NCBI GenBank assembly: GCA_030524035.1
Contig: JAUNHG010000004.1
Location: forward strand, 1 to 64,000
Reading direction: 5' to 3'
Length of the DNA: 64,000 bases
Source of the DNA: Kocuria sp.
GTDB lineage: Bacteria; Actinomycetota; Actinomycetes; Actinomycetales; Micrococcaceae
Part shown: one piece after another, positions 20,911 to 31,732 of the stretch
Numbering within the stretch: position 1 is the stretch's first letter
How the letters are laid out: each line of letters begins with the position of its first letter
Notes under the pieces: model-generated
Told to the model about the DNA's origin: nothing
Database searches by the model: none
What the model saw: the letters and a program-made list of their open reading frames with translations, nothing else
Position numbers and translations under genes: made by a program

Positions 20911-22431
20911 TCAGTCCTTCTCTGGCTTCATCAAAGGAAACAAAATAGTTTCCCGAATACCAAGGTCTGTGAAAAGCATGATCAGACGATCTAGACCCAA
21001 CCCAAGTCCTCCCATAGGTGGGGCGCCGTGCTCCAGTGCGCGGAGAAAGTCGTAATCCAGCTGCATCGCTTCTTCATCGCCTGCTGCGGCCATACGCGAC
21101 TGTTCCGTCAAACGCTCACATTGAATGACTGGATCAACCAGTTCAGAGAATGCGGTCCCGCGTTCCATTCCACCGATGATTAAGTCCCATGCCTCAATCA
21201 CACCTTCTTGACTACGGTGCTCCCTGGCCAAAGGTTGAGCCGCAGGTGGGTAATCGTAGACAAAAGTTGGTTGAATCAGAGTTGGTTCTACGATTTCACC
21301 AAACAGTTCAATCACAAGTTTTTGTGCATCCCACTCATCTTTGATGGCGATGTCCTGCTCAACGGCAATCGCTCGTAACTCATCCACGGAAGTCTGTGGC
21401 GTGACCTCCCGCCCAATTTTCTCAGACAAGCCGGGATAAACTCCCACCCACACCCATTCCCCACGAAGGTCAATATCCCCTTGGGCGGTGCGCAAGGGGC
21501 CATCAACCCCCAAGGCATCCGCGCAAGCCACGATGATTTTCTGGATCAACGCGGCCATGGTGAATTGATCCCCCCAGGCCTGATAAGCCTCCAAGGTGGT
21601 GAATTCCGGGCTGTGCGTGGAATCCACACCCTCGTTACGGAACACGCGCCCGATCTCAAACACCTGTTCAACGCCTCCGACCACGGCACGTTTGAGAAAC
21701 AGTTCCGTGGCAATGCGTAAAGTCATAGGTTGATCAAACGCATGAAGATGAGTTTCAAAAGGCCTGGCAGTAGCACCGCCGTGCACTAACTGCAGGACAG
21801 GGGTTTCAATTTCCAAATACCCTTCGTCTTCCAAAGTGCGCCGCACAGTCTTAACGATAGTGGCGCGAGTTCGTACTACCTCACGCGCAGGCTGACGTAC
21901 CAGAAGATCTAAATATCGCTGCCGAACCCGGGTTTCTTCATTCAATTCACTACCCTCATAAAGATTGGGTAAGGGGCGCAGCGCCTTGGAAGCCATCTGC
22001 CAGTGATCCACCATGACGGACAATTCCCCCCGACGGGAACTGATCACCTGACCGGTGGCGGACACAAAATCCCCTAAGTCCACCAGGTTTTTCCACTCCC
22101 CTAATGCTTCTTCACCCACAACCGCCAGTGAAAGCATGAGCTGAAGTTGCCTGCCATCTCCGTCCTGAATGGCCGCAAAACACAATTTGCCCGTATTGCG
22201 CACAAAAATTACCCGGCCGGTCACCGATACCACCTGGCCGCTTTCGGCCCCAGCCTCAAGATGTCCCCACGTTTCGCGGATTTGCTGGACCGTATGGGTC
22301 CGGGGCACACTCACCGGATACGCCTGACGTCCGGAATCCAGGAGTGCTTGCCGTTTGGCAAGCCGGAACTCCATTTGTTCATCCGAAAGTGTGTTGGGCT
22401 GACGATTCTGGGGATTCTCAGGGGTGGTCAC
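20911..22431 (-). CDS. lysS: Lysyl-tRNA synthetase, class II
   Basis: The 506-residue enzyme charges tRNA-Lys. It has an N-terminal OB-fold anticodon domain (VSVTGRVIFVRNTGKLCFAAIQDG) and class II catalytic motifs: motif 2 around FEIGRVFRNEGVDSTHSPEFT and motif 3 GLGLGLDRLIMLFTDL. I take GTG 22431 as start because TATTCT lies eight bases before it and the length fits the family. A longer in-frame extension upstream looks non-coding. Confidence 0.97.
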   Translation of the reverse strand: MTTPENPQNRQPNTLSDEQMEFRLAKRQALLDSGRQAYPVSVPRTHTVQQIRETWGHLEAGAESGQVVSVTGRVIFVRNTGKLCFAAIQDGDGRQLQLMLSLAVVGEEALGEWKNLVDLGDFVSATGQVISSRRGELSVMVDHWQMASKALRPLPNLYEGSELNEETRVRQRYLDLLVRQPAREVVRTRATIVKTVRRTLEDEGYLEIETPVLQLVHGGATARPFETHLHAFDQPMTLRIATELFLKRAVVGGVEQVFEIGRVFRNEGVDSTHSPEFTTLEAYQAWGDQFTMAALIQKIIVACADALGVDGPLRTAQGDIDLRGEWVWVGVYPGLSEKIGREVTPQTSVDELRAIAVEQDIAIKDEWDAQKLVIELFGEIVEPTLIQPTFVYDYPPAAQPLAREHRSQEGVIEAWDLIIGGMERGTAFSELVDPVIQCERLTEQSRMAAAGDEEAMQLDYDFLRALEHGAPPMGGLGLGLDRLIMLFTDLGIRETILFPLMKPEKD

Positions 22432-22439
22432 GGTGACCC

Positions 22440-22445
22440 AGAATA
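22440..22445 (-). promoter_or_regulatory. -10 box for leaderless lysS
   Basis: On the minus strand TATTCT is followed by eight bases and then GTG 22431, with no Shine-Dalgarno. Confidence 0.4.
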
Positions 22446-22517
22446 ACGGGCTACAGCCCCGTACCTCTATCCGACGGCACCGGAGAACACGCGACGTGTC
22501 CCCCACCCACGCAACGC

Positions 22518-24305
22518 CTACAAACGCCAGTTATCAATCAACCGGGTGTTGCCTACCCACGCTGCCACCAGTGCTAATGCGCCGGGTGCAGGCTCTATGG
22601 GGTTCAGGGTGTCTGGGTCTACTACATCCAGGTAATCCAACCGCACCGTTTGTGGGCCCTGCCCAATCAGTTCAGAGTTAATGCGCTGCCTGGCTTGGTC
22701 CAGATCCATCGAGCGTTCACTCAACGCCGCCAACGTCCGGGAGAGCACCAGGGCCGCCGCGCGTTCGTCATCAGTGAGGTAGGTGTTACGAGATGACAGC
22801 GCCAAGCCGTCGTCCGCACGGACGATGGGCACAGATCGGATGTCCACCTCCAGATTCAGGTCCCGCACCATGCGTTGAATGATCAGCAACTGCTGGGCGT
22901 CTTTCTGCCCAAAGTACGCCCGCAGCGGGCAGCCCACCTGTGTCAGCGCAAAAAGTTTGGCCACCACGGTCACCACACCGTCAAAATGCCCCGGGCGTGA
23001 TGCCCCTTCCCAGCGATCACCCAATTCCCCAGCAGACACCCTCACCAGCGGAAACCCCCCGGGATACATCTGTTCCACGGAAGGTGCAAAAATCAGGTCC
23101 ACCCCCAATGCTCGCAGCCGTTCCACATCCGCTGGTAGGTCGGACGGGTACCGGGAAAGATCCTCATTCGCCCCGAACTGGAGCGGATTAACGAATATGG
23201 ACACCGCCACAATGTCGTTATCCCGCCGCGCTTGTTGGACCACACGCCCGTGCCCGTCGTGTAAAGCGCCCATGGTAGGCACAAAACCAATAGTTGCCGT
23301 GGGACCAAGAGCCGCTACACGCTGCCGCAGCAGAGCACGAAACTCCTGAGGCTCCGTGATCACCTTTGGTTCTGCAGAGTGCGTGGCCTCCGGCACTAGG
23401 GCCTGTATGACTCGTTCATAATCGGCAGGGTTCAGAGCCGCACGACGCCGTGCACGTCCTGCGGTGACACCGGCCAGGGTCACGTAGGTATCCAGTGTGT
23501 CCGTCTGCCCGGTGGCGAGCGCAGCTTCCGCGAGCGCTACACGGTGTTCGGCGACGGTACCGGCGTCGCCACGGACCACGGGCCCAGTGAGGGTGGATTC
23601 GCCGGAGCGCAAAGCGTTGTCCACACTGGCGCGGCTGAGGGGGCCTAAGAGACGTGAGGGGTTGTCCACACCGATGCGTTCTAATACTTCCGTGGCTTGC
23701 CCGATGAGTGTGGTCAGGTAGTTGGCTCCGTGGGTGAGGGCAGTGTGATACAGCACCCGGTCAGCATCCGGAATGATCACGGGTTCTCCGCCCATTTCCA
23801 CCACAAGGGCTTGGGCTATGGGCACGATGGCGGCGGGGGCGCTCACCCCGAAGGGGCAATCCACTAGGCGGTCTAGATCCATGGACATTCCGGTGAAGGT
23901 CATGGCGGGGTGGATAGCCAGCGGCATCACACCCATGGCGCGCGCTGGTTCGAGGACGGAGGTGCCCCATCGTCCTGCGGTATGAACTACAAGCTGACCT
24001 GTTTGCCAATGCCCGGCTTGGGCTAACCCACTCACGAGGTCTTCGAGCTGGTCATCGGGGACGGCAAGCAAAACTAGCTCTGCTCGTTCCACGATGTCAG
24101 GAACGGGCAGGATAGGGGCACCCGGCAACAGGAGTTCCGCGCGTTCCATGGATTCTTGGGATACTGCGCTGACCCCCACCACGCTATGCCCTGCAGCGCG
24201 GAGCGCAGCCCCTAGGACGGCACCGACTTTACCCGCCCCGACCACCCCTACTCCTAGACGTCCGGGGCGGTTCGACGGCGTGTTGGCTGCTGTGCTTTTA
24301 TCCAC
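22518..24305 (-). CDS. panC: Fusion: Rossmann/DUF2520 oxidoreductase-like protein + pantothenate synthetase
   Basis: One uninterrupted 595-codon frame joins two proteins that are separate in mycobacteria (Rv3603c and panC). Residues ~1–305 are a Rossmann NAD(P)-binding domain ([20 protein letters not shown]) followed by a DUF2520 helical domain ([23 protein letters not shown]). Residues ~310–595 are complete PanC, which condenses pantoate with beta-alanine: [54 protein letters not shown] and [15 protein letters not shown] 24305 follows TACCAT by six bases. No stop codon, Shine-Dalgarno or frameshift separates the parts. panD and coaX are not adjacent. Confidence 0.95.
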
Positions 24306-24445: not shown

Positions 24446-26026
24446 TCACAGCGGCGCAGGGGGTTTCGATATATGGCTTTGCGGCAGCTCACCGCCATCG
24501 CTGGCGGGCTCAGCCACCAAAACCACTGCGGACTGCAGGCGCTGCAACTGCTGAACCACCAACCCCTCGGCATCGCGCTGATCCATCCGTGCCGCCACCG
24601 CACGCACCGCACCAGCGGTCGAATGCAACTGCACATCCGACAGCTTCAGCAGCCGCAATAACGGCCCACGTTTGATCCCCACAGACTGCACCTTGCCGTG
24701 ATTCATCACGGCACACTGACGGTACAACCGCCCCCGGCGCGTAATGACCGCGTGATCAGTGACCGCGTACCCATAACGACGCCGCACCAGCGGAGCCACC
24801 CAACGAGCCCGGGACGGGGCGTGATGAAACCTGGAGTGTTGATCAGCCTCGCCCGTTAACCCATCAAGCACCACATCCGTGAGCTCATCGCCGCCCGGAA
24901 CGGCCAGGCCACCCGTAAAAAGCTGTCGAAGTTCGTCGTCCGTGGCCACCGGCAACAACACTGACCGAGACACGGTTGACGACAAAGAATCGCCGGATCC
25001 CCCATAGCCTGCAACATTCGCCCGCGCCATAGACCAACCAGCCCAACGCCATAGCAACGGTCGATACACGCCCACTGCCTGCACACGATGTGTAGGCACC
25101 GTCTGCGACACCTTATTTAACAGCCCATAACGTAACCGCAGCCCGTGATCGTTACGCGCCATGGTGAATCCCCAGCTCTCGTCCAAAGCTTTGAATCCCA
25201 TACCCACAAAGGTCAACAGCATCGGACCAAAAAATGCCACCAAAAACCCAATCAGCTGGGGGAACAGAATGGCCAGCACCACACCACTAACCACCAACAC
25301 ACAGGACAACAGAAAAGACACGGTTAACAGCCGTGCACAAATCACACGGCGCACCGGCAAACGCAACAACATCTGCTCCCGCGCGCCTGCTCCCTCTTCA
25401 CCAACACCTTGCCAGTCCGTTTCAGACCCTTGTTGTTCGCCAGTGTCGGAGGCCGCTGCATGGCTCACAGCCCCCGCAGCCCCCAACAATTCCTGACGTA
25501 GCTGCCGGGCGTGCTGGTATTTCAGGTAACGCAGCACCACGGAAGTTTCCCCAGCGTCAGCGACCTCAAAACGCAACTCCGCTAGCCCCAATAACCGGGT
25601 GACCACAGGGCGTTGCAAGTCCAAAGCGTGCACACGGTCCAACCTGGTTTGACGGTCCCGCCGGAAAACCAAACCGGTGCGCAATCGCACATGGGTGTGG
25701 GTGATCTGGTACCGCTCAAACCACCATACATACGCTGACCATGCCGTGACCACGAGGGCACCAACCAGCACAATGAACATATAAAACACCACGGGAGAAC
25801 CCATGGATATAAATTCAATCCACGCGGGAATTTCTTGCTGCGATTCCTCCGCTGAGGAACTCTCTGAATCAGTAAAACCATCAAAAAACCCGTTAATCGA
25901 GCTGTTCAACCAGATACCCACGCACACCGCCAAAGTCATCCAGCCCCGGGCCAAAGGGCTGATGGGATGTAGCCGATGCCAGGTGTGGGAATCATCCGCT
26001 CCCCGTAATTCAGGCAATGTACTCAC
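24446..26026 (-). CDS. Large PH-domain (bPH2/DUF304, YdbT-like) membrane protein
   Basis: The 526-residue membrane protein has two pairs of transmembrane helices and repeated bacterial PH-like domains. The first, after ~110 residues, contains ITHTHVRLRTGLVFRRDRQTRLDRVHALDLQRP. Further copies lie around residues 320 and 430 (VTDHAVITRRGRLYRQCAVMNHGKVQSV). This is the YdbT type, encoded beside a small YdbS type as here. In Bacillus the pair relates to antimicrobial-compound resistance; here the role is unknown. It overlaps the upstream PH gene by 4 bp (ATGA). Confidence 0.88.
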   Translation of the reverse strand: MSTLPELRGADDSHTWHRLHPISPLARGWMTLAVCVGIWLNSSINGFFDGFTDSESSSAEESQQEIPAWIEFISMGSPVVFYMFIVLVGALVVTAWSAYVWWFERYQITHTHVRLRTGLVFRRDRQTRLDRVHALDLQRPVVTRLLGLAELRFEVADAGETSVVLRYLKYQHARQLRQELLGAAGAVSHAAASDTGEQQGSETDWQGVGEEGAGAREQMLLRLPVRRVICARLLTVSFLLSCVLVVSGVVLAILFPQLIGFLVAFFGPMLLTFVGMGFKALDESWGFTMARNDHGLRLRYGLLNKVSQTVPTHRVQAVGVYRPLLWRWAGWSMARANVAGYGGSGDSLSSTVSRSVLLPVATDDELRQLFTGGLAVPGGDELTDVVLDGLTGEADQHSRFHHAPSRARWVAPLVRRRYGYAVTDHAVITRRGRLYRQCAVMNHGKVQSVGIKRGPLLRLLKLSDVQLHSTAGAVRAVAARMDQRDAEGLVVQQLQRLQSAVVLVAEPASDGGELPQSHISKPPAPL

Positions 26027-26583
26027 AGCGCCATCAAGCGGCCTTCGCCGCGTTCCGTTAAACGTTCGCGCAAGCGATCCGCCTCAGCAGCGGTAATTCC
26101 GGGCAAGGTGGTATCAGTTTCTGGGGATGCGGTATGTAACGTGATTTCCGCCATTCCGAAGGCGCGCAGCAGAGGTCCCGAATTAATATCCACGTACTGC
26201 ATACGACCATACGGGACCACCACCAACCGCCGAATAATCAACCCTTTACGTACCAAGAAATACTCGGGGTCTTCCCGATAGCAATACGCGCGGGCACGCC
26301 GTGGCACCAAGAGAATGTGGAACACATAAAACACCAGCACCATAGCGGGCCAGGGAATCACCCACCACCATGACACCGTAGAATCCCAGACCCATAGTTT
26401 GAGCGCCACAGGCCAGCCGGTGATTGCCAGAAGAATCACCGCCGACATCACCTCAGAAATCCACAAGATCCAGACATAACGCGAACTGATGCCCTGCCAC
26501 TGACCATCAGCGTCACCAGACCCAGGGCGTGTAGCAGGGTCATCTGCACGCAACGGGGTGAGTGTTGCGGGGGTTTCAGTCAT
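26023..26583 (-). CDS. Small PH-domain (bPH2, YdbS-like) membrane protein
   Basis: The 186-residue product has two membrane segments followed by one bacterial PH-like domain (YFLVRKGLIIRRLVVVPYGR, MQYVDINSGPLLRAFGMAEI). It pairs with the large PH protein that follows with a 4-bp overlap, and it overlaps the DUF3180 gene upstream by 8 bp. The run folK–DUF3180–PH–PH is tightly packed, which argues for one transcript with the folate genes. Confidence 0.88.
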   Translation of the reverse strand: MTETPATLTPLRADDPATRPGSGDADGQWQGISSRYVWILWISEVMSAVILLAITGWPVALKLWVWDSTVSWWWVIPWPAMVLVFYVFHILLVPRRARAYCYREDPEYFLVRKGLIIRRLVVVPYGRMQYVDINSGPLLRAFGMAEITLHTASPETDTTLPGITAAEADRLRERLTERGEGRLMAL

Positions 26584-27142
26584 CTGCGGCGCCTTTCACG
26601 CTATGAGGATTCGGAGGTTTTCTGTTACCCCGGACCCGGGCCATACCGCCTTCCTGGGCGGGATAGTTGCGGGGGCTGGGCTGAGAACCGGAATCTTCCG
26701 GTTCGTCCGGGGGTAGACGACAGAAACCCTCCACCAACCACCCCACAACGCACAACACCACACCAATAACGGTCATCGCACCAACCAGCCATAACGCCGA
26801 ATGATCGGAACGAACCGATAACAACATAACCTGAGTAACGGTTAAAAGCCCATGCCAGCCTGCAATCAAGGCTCCCGCCAACGCGTTAGCCTGCGCCATG
26901 GCTACCGCAACTACCGCCCACGTCCGGTCCATCCGTACGTCACGGTCACCATCACGTATCCGACGGACCCGCAGCCCCACCAACAAAAGCGCTGCGGCTT
27001 GGAACAACAAAGCGATTCCGGCGGCCCATGGCAACGACAATAAGGACGCCCCCGCCCCAGTCGTGAGCAGATCGACCACCCAACTCCCGGCAAAAGCACA
27101 CGCCGTTATCAACAGCAGCACGCGGAGGGTGAGGTGACGCAC
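26576..27142 (-). CDS. DUF3180 membrane protein (Rv3605c-like)
   Basis: The 188-residue product has four predicted membrane helices, including a paired helix with the MAQANALAGALIAGWHGLL stretch typical of DUF3180, and a polar C-terminal tail. It follows folK directly in mycobacteria too (Rv3605c). The GTG at 27142 is two bases after the folK stop. Function is unknown, despite its conserved place behind the folate genes. Confidence 0.85.
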   Translation of the reverse strand: MRHLTLRVLLLITACAFAGSWVVDLLTTGAGASLLSLPWAAGIALLFQAAALLLVGLRVRRIRDGDRDVRMDRTWAVVAVAMAQANALAGALIAGWHGLLTVTQVMLLSVRSDHSALWLVGAMTVIGVVLCVVGWLVEGFCRLPPDEPEDSGSQPSPRNYPAQEGGMARVRGNRKPPNPHSVKGAADD

Positions 27143-27144
27143 CG

Positions 27145-27669
27145 CTACCTCGCAGGCCTTTGAGCGGGAACATCTGCGAGTAAGAGATCACTACGGGCGG
27201 CAACACCCGTGAAATCCTCGGCCCGTTCCGCCAACAGGCGTACCGACGTGCCATGTAGTTGGGCATCCGCGTCCATCATGGACCACGGCACTAACACAAA
27301 AGCACGTTCTGCAGCGCGAGGGTGCGGCAGTGTCAGCGCTGGTTCATCCATGGTCAGCCCGGCATAGTCCACGATATCCACGTCCAAGGTGCGAGGACCC
27401 CACCGAACATCACGAACCCGATCATGCGAGGTTTCTATTGCTTGACACACCGCCAATAATTCGAATGGCCCCAGCGTGGTCGAAAGACGCACCACCGCGT
27501 TGAGGTAATCGGGTTGGCCTTCCGGCCCTCCCACAGGGCGAGTAGTCACCACGGGCGAAACTGCCGCAACCTCCACACCATCGGTTGCTGCGAGGTCCGC
27601 AACGGCTGCACGTAACAACTGCGCCCGGTCGCCCACGTTAGACCCCAACGCAACAATCACCTGTCTCAT
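27145..27669 (-). CDS. folK: HPPK, dihydropterin pyrophosphokinase FolK
   Basis: The 174-residue enzyme transfers pyrophosphate from ATP to 6-hydroxymethyl-7,8-dihydropterin. It shows VALGSNVGDR at the N-terminus, NAVVRLSTTLGPFELL, and the signature RDVRWGPRTLDVDIVDY followed by LPHPRAAERAFVLVPW. It starts two bases after folB in the order ftsH–folE–folP–folB–folK. Confidence 0.97.
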   Translation of the reverse strand: MRQVIVALGSNVGDRAQLLRAAVADLAATDGVEVAAVSPVVTTRPVGGPEGQPDYLNAVVRLSTTLGPFELLAVCQAIETSHDRVRDVRWGPRTLDVDIVDYAGLTMDEPALTLPHPRAAERAFVLVPWSMMDADAQLHGTSVRLLAERAEDFTGVAARSDLLLADVPAQRPAR

Positions 27670-27671
27670 GA

Positions 27672-28037
27672 CTAACGCTCCCTGACCACCGTAACGGCTA
27701 CGTTGGTGAACGGCACCGTGATCGGCGCGTGTGGTTTATTCACGGTCAACTCCACCCGCTGCACCAGCGGGTAATTCTGCAGAATGAGCCGTGCTGTGCG
27801 TTCCGCCAAGGTTTCAATGAGATCCACGGGGTCAGACACAATCTGCCCGTGAATCAGTTCCGCCACCTGGCCATAATCAATCGTATGCCGGAGGTCATCA
27901 GAGGTGCCCGCCGAACTCACATCCAATTCCAACGCGGCATCGACCACAAATTCCTGCCCTTCACGCTTTTCAGCAGCAAGAACGCCGTGGTATCCGTAAC
28001 CGGTCACACCGGTCACGGTGATTTTGTCCCGCGTCAT
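27672..28037 (-). CDS. folB: Dihydroneopterin aldolase FolB
   Basis: The 121-residue enzyme splits 7,8-dihydroneopterin into 6-hydroxymethyl-dihydropterin and glycolaldehyde. Characteristic are GYHGVLAAEKREGQEFVVDA, DDLRHTIDYGQVAELI, LIETLAERTARLIL and the terminal VNKPHAPI. The ATG at 28037 overlaps the folP stop as ATGA, indicating coupling. Confidence 0.96.
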   Translation of the reverse strand: MTRDKITVTGVTGYGYHGVLAAEKREGQEFVVDAALELDVSSAGTSDDLRHTIDYGQVAELIHGQIVSDPVDLIETLAERTARLILQNYPLVQRVELTVNKPHAPITVPFTNVAVTVVRER

Positions 28038-28942
28038 GAGGCACCACCTGCCCAAGCACGGGAGACCGCAAGAGCATCCCGTGTGGTCGGCACATCATGT
28101 ACACGCACAGCCCAAGCGCCACGGTCAGCGGCCAACGCACAAACCGCTGCGGTAGCCACGTCCCTTCCCAGCGCTGGCCGGGGATCGCCATCAACGGATA
28201 GCACATTGCCGATAAACCGTTTTCGGGAAGCCCCCACCAACACAGGATGGCCCGTGCGCACAAACTCAGGTAGGGCACGCAGCAGATCCCAATCCTGCAC
28301 TCCAGCCTTCGCGAAACCCAGACCGGGGTCCAGAATCACATCGGCTGGTTCCACACCGGCGTGCAGAAAACGTTGCACCACATTCAGCAGTTCCTGAAGA
28401 ACCTCCTCAACGACATCCCGGTAAACAGCTAAAGAATCCATAGTCCCGGGAGTACCACGGGAATGCATCAGCACGTACGGAACCTGACGTTCAGCAATCA
28501 ACGCCACCATCTCCGCCGTCGTGGACACCCCTGAGACATCATTGATGCAATGCGCACCGGCATCCAGCGCAGCCTCAGCCGTTGACGCGTTGATGGTATC
28601 CACTGTGACCACCACGCCGGCGTCTGTAAGCTCACGAACCACCGGGAGAATACGGCGGCGCTCCTCCACAGGATCCACACGGGCAGCACCGGGGCGGGTG
28701 GATTCACCGCCCACATCCACCATGTCCGCCCCCTGCCGGGCCAGTAACAAGCCGTGCTCCACGGCCTCCCGGTGGGTGTGGTGCAGTCCCCCATCGGAAA
28801 ACGAATCCGGGGTGACGTTGAGGATTCCCATGATCACCGTGCGCTCACGGGGTAAATTTTCCCACGTGCCCCACCCCATAGCACCGTCCGGCAACGAGAG
28901 ACTCTGGGATATTTTCGTACTCAGAGGCGCTGTCATGCTCAT
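28034..28942 (-). CDS. folP: Dihydropteroate synthase FolP
   Basis: The 302-residue TIM-barrel enzyme condenses dihydropterin pyrophosphate with p-aminobenzoate; it is the sulfonamide target. Motifs are MGILNVTPDSFSDGG, DVGGESTRPGA, DTINASTAEAAL, CINDVSGV, LMHSRGTPGTM and DPGLGFAK. An N-terminal extension of ~35 residues precedes the barrel. Two start ATGs (28942 and 28936) are possible. Confidence 0.97.
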   Translation of the reverse strand: MSMTAPLSTKISQSLSLPDGAMGWGTWENLPRERTVIMGILNVTPDSFSDGGLHHTHREAVEHGLLLARQGADMVDVGGESTRPGAARVDPVEERRRILPVVRELTDAGVVVTVDTINASTAEAALDAGAHCINDVSGVSTTAEMVALIAERQVPYVLMHSRGTPGTMDSLAVYRDVVEEVLQELLNVVQRFLHAGVEPADVILDPGLGFAKAGVQDWDLLRALPEFVRTGHPVLVGASRKRFIGNVLSVDGDPRPALGRDVATAAVCALAADRGAWAVRVHDVPTTRDALAVSRAWAGGAS

Positions 28943-28947
28943 ATCCG

Positions 28948-29511
28948 TCAGCGTCCCAAAATCAAGCTCATAGCTTCCGTGCGTGTGGCAGGATCCCGCA
29001 ATTGGCCACGTACCGCAGAGGTCACGGTCCTAGCCCCGGGTTTGCGCACACCGCGCATAGACATACAAAGGTGTTCAGCTTCCACCACAACAATTGCGCC
29101 CGCCGTCTGTAAATGCTCTACCAGTGATTCCACAATCTGGGTGGTTAATCGTTCCTGCACCTGGGGACGATTGGCAAAAACACCTACCAACCGCGCTAAT
29201 TTGGATAATCCAGTGACCCGTCCTCCGTCACCGGGTATGTAACCGATATGAGCCTGCCCGTAGAAAGGCACCAAATGGTGTTCACACACGGAGTGGAAAA
29301 CAATGTCTTTTACCAGCACCATCTCCGAATGGCCGATGTCGAACGTCGTGGATAAAACATCCTCCGGCGTCATGGTCAAACCGGCGAACATTTCGTCGTA
29401 AGCGCGGGCCACACGTTGCGGGGTTTCACGCAACCCTTCACGATCCGGATCCTCACCAATTGCTTCCAGGATTTCGCGCACCGCAGCCGCAATTCGTGGC
29501 TGGTCTACCAC
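28948..29511 (-). CDS. folE: GTP cyclohydrolase I FolE
   Basis: The 187-residue enzyme makes dihydroneopterin triphosphate from GTP, the first folate step. The Zn/active-site block [22 protein letters not shown] and the later [19 protein letters not shown] carry the zinc-binding Cys and His residues. The GTG start at 29511 overlaps the ftsH stop by 7 bp. Confidence 0.97.
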
Positions 29512-31553
29512 GGTGTTCCCCCCTGCTGATGGTCATCCGGATCCTGTGGGTTTTGTTCCGGTTCTCCTTCACCCGGTAACCGCTCGAATTGCTCACGTTC
29601 TTCTGGTGAAGCCTGAGCCAGCTCTTCCTTTTCCCTGCTGGTGGTCACAGGCGGCAGGGTTGATACTTCACGACCCTCATGGGAAATCCATTGCTCACGC
29701 TCTGGCTGTTTAACGACGTCACGGAAGATTTCCGCGATTTCGGCTTCGTTCAGTGTTTCTTTTTCCAGTAATTCCAGCGCCAAACGGTCCAAAATCTGCC
29801 GGTTCTGCAGCAGGACCCGGTGTGCTTCATCTTGAGCGTTTTCCAGCAAGGCGCGTACTTCTTGGTCCACCACTGCCGCTGTAGATTCGGAGTACCCTCG
29901 TTCTTCGGCCCCACCTCTGCCCATAAAGGGTTCGGAATTATTACCACCGAGTTTGACGGACCCCAGTCGAGAGGACATCCCAAATTGGGTGACCATGTTG
30001 CGTGCCGTATCAGTGGCTTTCTGGATGTCATTGGAGGCGCCAGAGGAAGGATCCTTAAACACGATTTCCTCCGCCGCGCGCCCACCCATGGCGTAAGCCA
30101 TCTGGTCCAACAGCTCGTTACGGGTGGTCGAATATTTGTCATCTGCGGGCATCACCATGGTGTACCCCAGAGCGCGACCTCGCGGCAGAATCGTGATTTT
30201 GGTGACCGGGTCTGTGTGATGTAACGCTGCCGCCACCAGCGCGTGTCCGCCTTCGTGGTAAGCCGTGACTTTGCGCTCGTGCTCTTTCATCAACCGTGAG
30301 CGCTTCTGCGGCCCGGCGATCACACGGTCAATGGCCTCGTCCACAGCCCGGTGGTCAATGAGGTGCGAGTGGGAACGAGCAGTCAGCAAAGCGGCCTCGT
30401 TCATCACATTCGCCAGTTCAGCACCCGTGAATCCAGGCGTGCGTTTGGCCACGGAGGCAAGGTCTACGGAATCGTCCAAAGGCTTGCCTTCCGCGTGGAC
30501 ACGCAAAATCTGCTCACGGCCCTTCATATCCGGGGCTTCCACACCAATTTGACGATCAAACCTGCCCGGGCGCAGCAATGCCGGATCCAGAACATCCGGC
30601 CGGTTTGTAGCAGCGATCATGATGATATTGGTGGTGGCATCAAAACCGTCCATCTCCACCAACAACTGGTTAAGGGTTTGTTCGCGTTCATCGTTACCGC
30701 CCCCCATTCCAGCGCCACGCTGACGCCCCACGGCGTCAATTTCGTCCACGAAGATGATTGCGGGTGCGTTTTCCTTGGCGGTTTGGAATAGGTCGCGCAC
30801 ACGCGAAGCGCCCACACCCACAAACATTTCCACGAAGTCGGACCCGGAAATGGAGAAAAACGGAACAGAAGCTTCCCCGGCGACGGCCTTGGCCAGCAAA
30901 GTTTTCCCCGTACCCGGGGGGCCATACAGCAGAACACCCTTGGGAACCGATGCCCCCAGGGCTGTAAAACGGTCACGTTCCACCAGAAACTGTTTGATTT
31001 CATCCAGCTCCTGAACGGCTTCGTCAGCCCCGGCGACGTCGGCAAAAGTCACTTTCGGGTTGTCTTGATCAAATTGTTTGGCCTTAGATCGGCCAAATTT
31101 CATCAGCTGTGATCCGCCGCCCTGCAGCCGAGAGAAGAGGAACCAGAAAATCGCCAAGATGATCAGGAACGGCAGGAGGAACTGGATCAGCGACAACAAC
31201 CAGTTGCTTTGCACTGGCTGATCTGTGTAGCTGTCCAGCTCCGAATTGGCGATGGCTTCCACGACTTCTGGCCCACGTGGCTGTACGTAGTAAAACTCAA
31301 CGTTCTTGCCATAGTCGCGGCCATTGGCTGAATAGTCCTCAGCCAGGGTGAGATCCACCCGCTGTTCGCCATCGTGGATCTTGGCTTCTGTGGCCTTGTT
31401 GTCCTTGAGTAGTTCTAGGCCGACGTTGGTATCCACACGGTTTCCGTCGTTGGATGTCAACGTGTTAATGACAGGAATCAACACCAACAGCGCGAGAAGA
31501 ATCCAGAAAAATGGTCCTCCAAAGAAGCCCTGTTTCTTTTGAGCGGTGGCCAA
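29505..31553 (-). CDS. ftsH: ATP-dependent zinc metalloprotease FtsH
   Basis: The membrane protease degrades misfolded and regulatory proteins. It has two transmembrane helices flanking a periplasmic domain (first ~130 residues). The AAA+ module follows, with Walker [19 protein letters not shown], Walker [12 protein letters not shown] and [24 protein letters not shown]. The M41 protease has the zinc site HEGGH. I prefer TTG 31553 (682 aa) to a GTG at 31577 because AGAGGA lies between them at ribosome-binding distance. It heads the folate gene cluster. Confidence 0.97.
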
Positions 31554-31732
31554 AGCCGGTGGTCCTCTCTCACACAATGCCGATCAGGAACACAGCGCAT
31601 GCCACAACGGCAGCGCCATGGGAAGTCAAAGTGACAATGTAGCGCGCCAGGGGTCATCCGTCAGGGCCATGACGTCCGGTTCACCCCACGGCGGACACTT
31701 TCTGAGGCAATCACCAGGTGACAAACCCCGGA

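Follow-up and report, generated by a model that had tools for sequence, protein, structure and literature searches.

What does it mean that a single open reading frame of a Kocuria genome carries both a Rossmann-type protein of the DUF2520 family and a pantothenate synthetase (PanC), and could the former half supply the pantoate which the latter consumes? The frame lies within a window of 64,000 nucleotides (contig JAUNHG010000004.1, positions 1 to 64,000), the whole stretch of DNA analysed here. The first-pass annotation had correctly placed it at 22518-24305, leaving its strand, which is minus, unstated. Its reading of the frame as a full Rossmann/DUF2520 protein joined to a full PanC is borne out by matches to PF10727, PF10728 and PF02569 (Table 1), and its statement that the 2 are neighboring, separate genes in mycobacteria agrees with the Rv3603c-panC pair (PMC3317503). 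The Kocuria genome (2.3 Mb, 99.75% complete) contains a single copy of the fused gene, which is separated from the last upstream bPH_2 gene by a gap of 140 bases; a search of the region for promoter-like sites gave none. The neighboring lysS gene marks a conserved end of the locus and is also present at 3 other loci (L125, L126, and L158).

Table 1. The fused gene, its domains and its neighbors in the window.
Feature	Coordinates	Strand	Details
Fused DUF2520 (PanG-like) reductase and PanC gene	22518..24305	minus	595 residues, GTG start at 24305, stop at 22518
Rossmann-like NAD(P)-binding domain PF10727	23907..24275	minus	residues 11-133, 1.6e-37; GAGKVG loop 23-28
DUF2520 helical domain PF10728	23475..23858	minus	residues 150-277, 6.4e-31
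Linker between domains	23370..23405	minus	residues 301-312
PanC domain Pantoate_ligase PF02569	22527..23366	minus	residues 314-593, 4e-96
Lysyl-tRNA synthetase (lysS)	20911..22506	minus	11 bases downstream of fused gene
ftsH, folE, folP, folB, folK, DUF3180, bPH_2, bPH_2 (transcription order)	24446..31577	minus	upstream of fused gene

The C-terminal half is unambiguously assigned to PanC by its family and motifs: the fused protein scores 287.5 bits against the TIGR00018 panC model (cut-off 212.75), and the active-site motifs of PanC are intact (a motif at residue 343, FVNPLQF at 371, FGQKDAQQ at 465, and SSRN at 504). Pantothenate synthetase activity can be predicted for this half from its family membership. 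The model for the bifunctional PanC/(d)CMP kinase (NF010004) gives 272 bits, below its cut-off of 524; the protein ends with PanC, and a C-terminal CMP kinase domain is absent.

Because open frames often arise by chance in GC-rich DNA, and because an internal GTG start for PanC is possible, the frame could in principle be an assembly or chance artefact, the 2 proteins being made separately. We regard this as barely credible. The 22518-24305 frame contains no stop or frameshift between the DUF2520 and PanC domains, and the same single-frame architecture recurs in 5 other assemblies of the genus; the 6 independent assemblies, none with a stop between the domains, fall into one clade. The fusion is thus genuine and conserved rather than an assembly error. 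Several long frames around panC in other genomes (490-648 residues) turned out to be chance extensions missing the second domain, and since GC-rich frames open by chance, each claim of a fusion rests on finding both domains. In the Kocuria frame, the 2 domains are each complete and conserved.

The fusion is present in 6 of the 25 Kocuria genomes (the studied one, G017, G006, G024, G001, and G020), with linkers ranging from 12 to 53 residues and the shortest length, 12 residues, in the studied protein. The remaining 19 genomes encode DUF2520 and panC as separate genes, and all of them, as well as a family-level relative (G046), have a possible start codon for panC at position -4 relative to the DUF2520 stop, the start and stop overlapping by 4 bases (GTGA or ATGA). 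In the tree of both domains, the 6 fused proteins form one clade with support of 100/99, showing that the fusion arose once, in a single Kocuria clade. As judged from the unfused relatives, its ancestor would have been a translationally coupled gene pair in which a linker of variable length replaced the 4-base stop/start overlap. Both halves are under purifying selection, with dN/dS of 0.09-0.28 for the N-terminal half and 0.09-0.36 for PanC, synonymous sites being near saturation. Two more DUF2520-PanC fusions were found in distant actinobacteria, namely Serinibacter arcticus (L095) and a member of a different family of the same phylum (G373).

The function of the N-terminal half was approached through its predicted structure, residues and family membership. 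The AlphaFold model, which covers this half only, has a mean pLDDT of 94, and its best structure matches are the DUF2520-type proteins 3d1l (Z 21.8) and 2i76 (Z 20.2), followed by 3-hydroxyisobutyrate dehydrogenases, imine reductases and ketol-acid reductoisomerases. The predicted fold is that of a 6PGDH-superfamily reductase; the best structure matches listed include no PanE/KPR chains, an absence from which no difference in fold should be read. At the family level, PF10727 and PF10728 both exceed their cut-offs, placing the protein in the DUF2520/PanG family, PF02558 (PanE/ApbA) stays below its own (19.3 versus 22.2 bits), and TIGR00745 is not among the models matched by the fused protein. 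The N-terminal half has the conserved residues Y186, H187, and N195 and an LTGPVxRGD motif at 239-247; the residues shared without exception by actinobacterial homologues and those of Bacteroidota, Bacillota, and Pseudomonadota are D84, H108, G111, H187, N195, G241, P242, R245, D247, and Y274. H187 and N195 are located on the long helix 180-210 following the Rossmann fold, and the helix in this position is the usual site of catalytic residues in the superfamily. Lysine does not form the majority in any column of the DUF2520 alignment; it peaks at residue 26, within the glycine loop, with 41%. The catalytic lysine of Escherichia coli PanE is Lys176, and the lack of a conserved lysine in DUF2520 implies that its chemistry would differ from that of PanE. 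In place of that lysine, the reductase may use H187, Y186, and N195, which are carried by the first long helix that comes after the Rossmann domain.

These residues also bear on the proposal that the DUF2520 half is a non-catalytic, regulatory or structural partner of PanC, either a sensor of NADPH or CoA or the link between vitamins B5 and B9 that was put forward for Rv3603c in 2012. The locus does unite folate and pantothenate genes (PMC3317503), but the conservation of H108, H187, N195, R245, and D247 across phyla in an active-site-like pattern, together with the reductase fold, makes such a role very unlikely. A natural control is provided by Corynebacterium glutamicum, in which ketopantoate reductase activity derives from ilvC only, according to Merkamm 2003 as cited in PMC4353338. 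The homologue in this species, 3dfu (Cgl2689), is shortened, is not matched by the DUF2520 model and carries L, A, and G at the positions of Y186, H187, and N195, a loss that fits lost catalysis there and that also argues against a purely regulatory partner. C. glutamicum exceeds the TIGR00745 cut-off and yet is reported to rely on ilvC, so a match to the PanE model cannot be equated with activity. Thermotoga maritima, the second natural control, has matches to DUF2520, PanB, PanC, and PanD and no match to PanE at E<=1e-15, and the structure of its DUF2520 protein (2i76) retains the HP, YH, N, and LTGPVxRGD motifs.

Whether a genome with the fusion lacks a canonical ketopantoate reductase, a point raised in the first-pass annotation, has a divided answer. 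The studied genome encodes no PanE, the best TIGR00745 match reaching 23.5 bits against a cut-off of 141, but it does encode IlvC (contig C2), along with PanD (contig C2) and PanB (contig C4). IlvC is able to reduce ketopantoate, so its presence means that the absence of PanE is no proof of a role for DUF2520; IlvC was found in every genome checked. In a survey of 148 genomes of the class, DUF2520 was detected in 134, PanB in 145 and a PanE above the cut-off in 59. DUF2520 occurs without an above-cut-off PanE in 76 of the 148 genomes, or in 56 when PanE is called at the looser E<=1e-15 (counted from the tables). Statistics of presence and absence were dropped, since DUF2520 and PanB are near-universal and PanE occurs in many genomes, so that no enrichment can be demonstrated. 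DUF2520 is not indispensable, given that 13 genomes of family f108, mostly 1.2-1.5 Mb in size (G447, G458, G467, G476, G484, G490, G496, G502, G508, G514, G520, G526, and G532), have PanB and PanC with neither DUF2520 nor an above-cut-off PanE; their pantoate must come from IlvC or from another, unfamiliar reductase.

Gene neighborhoods were examined at 80 named actinobacterial loci gathered with the DUF2520 half alone as the query. panC is adjacent to DUF2520 in 75 of these and fused to it in 1 (76 of 80 together); DUF2520 has no panC neighbor in A. naeslundii (L059) and Brevibacterium (L072). Several loci are extended pan operons, with the orders DUF2520-panC-panD-panB (G267, gene ends adjoining or overlapping), DUF2520-panC-panB (G317) and DUF2520-panB-panC (G170), and none of these 3 genomes has a PanE match at E<=1e-15. 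The Tsukamurella locus reads DUF2520-panC-panD-coaX and that of Thermomicrobium roseum, from another phylum, DUF2520-panB-panC. The step missing from each of these operons is ketopantoate reduction, and DUF2520 thus occupies the place of PanE in pan operons.

It is nevertheless conceivable that the DUF2520 half reduces a different 2-keto acid or some metabolite related to one, with IlvC supplying the pantoate and the link to panC reflecting a coupling to nearby CoA or amino acid metabolism. Apart from the presence of IlvC, this is favored by 2 genomes, G025 (L125) and G449 (L126), which keep DUF2520 at the lysS locus while PanB and PanC are missing from the genome, so that the gene may have another role there or be a relic. 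Likewise, Sphingobium, Novosphingobium, Legionella, Ruegeria, and Caballeronia have plasmid homologues at a distance from pan genes, that of Caballeronia between genes for an aldehyde dehydrogenase and an alpha-hydroxy-acid oxidase, and a Bacteroidota-type homologue was found in a non-pantothenate locus. The plasmid homologues in unrelated contexts and the DUF2520 genes without panB and panC make a second activity possible, and the family may be functionally mixed. The repeated clustering with panC and the 3 or more fusions specifically to it, as well as the operons combining panB, panC, and panD with DUF2520 in PanE-less genomes, speak against such a substrate, and we consider this alternative unlikely. 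As a separate observation, H187, N195, and RGD are conserved in the plasmid homologues of Legionella antarctica and L. fallonii (L155 and L156), Sphingobium (L159) and in L153, L154, and L151, and some plasmid-borne homologues adjoin conjugation genes.

Collectively, the fusion is probably a bifunctional protein combining a PanG-type ketopantoate reductase with PanC, of single origin in Kocuria from a coupled gene pair. The N-terminal Rossmann/DUF2520 half would reduce ketopantoate with NAD(P)H, and the C-terminal PanC would use ATP to condense the pantoate so formed with beta-alanine, the 2 halves together catalyzing the final 2 reactions that lead to pantothenate (vitamin B5). The genes for PanB and PanD lie at other sites of the genome, and their products would provide ketopantoate and beta-alanine; the fusion would fix the 2 activities at a 1:1 ratio. 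The earlier hypothesis that the DUF2520 domain supplies pantoate is therefore probably right as a prediction of activity, and it is not new (PMC4572677). To a component function already proposed in print, the present analysis adds support, the fusion with its one-time origin in Kocuria, and the correlation with catalytic residues. A further-reaching reading, in which the active sites cooperate by channelling or shared regulation, the reductase has a lysine-free His/Asn site and the unfused Rv3603c type is a major pantoate maker of many actinobacteria, is more speculative and rather unlikely. The matter is of consequence for mycobacteria, since panE of Mycobacterium tuberculosis (Rv2573) is non-essential and the activity of its product unverified (PMC7770189); the fusion and the panE-less operons point to the Rv3603c type as the candidate pantoate-making enzyme there. 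With the Kocuria fusion, the 2 reactions could be followed jointly on a single protein.

The closest known system is PanG (FTT1388), the protein of Francisella reported as a ketopantoate reductase (Miller 2013, as cited in PMC4572677, PMC5449765, and PMC4207893). A DUF2520 protein of Corynebacterium ulceribovis was identified as a PanG-type ketopantoate reductase in 2015, with EF1861 and FTT1388 named as its homologues (PMC4572677). The Kocuria domain shares with PanG the proposed reaction and the place in the pathway, and it belongs to the DUF2520 family, a member of which is homologous to PanG according to the same source, but it differs in being fused to PanC; our literature search found neither a PanG-PanC fusion nor any description of a DUF2520-PanC fusion. 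The name PanG covers 2 families, the "PanG" of Bacillus subtilis (YkpB) being assigned to the PanE family in PMC11487621, which may confuse annotation. In comparison with PanE/ApbA, the reaction is presumably the same and the fold superfamily is shared, whereas the DUF2520 half falls below the ApbA-family cut-off and has no conserved lysine. The Rv3603c-panC pair of mycobacteria (COG5495) differs in that the genes are separate and the suggested function, based on a link to panC by genomic context in 2012, is regulatory (PMC3317503). The tag Rv3603c is itself used in 2 ways, for coaX in PMC7770189 and for the DUF2520 protein in PMC3317503. The PanC/(d)CMP kinase (NF010004) likewise has PanC inside a fused protein, with another partner on the opposite side of PanC. 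Finally, the KPHMT-KPR (PanB-PanE) fusion of Toxoplasma (PMC8764084) is also a natural fusion within the pantothenate pathway, but it is eukaryotic and joins PanB to the reductase, whereas the Kocuria protein joins the reductase to PanC.
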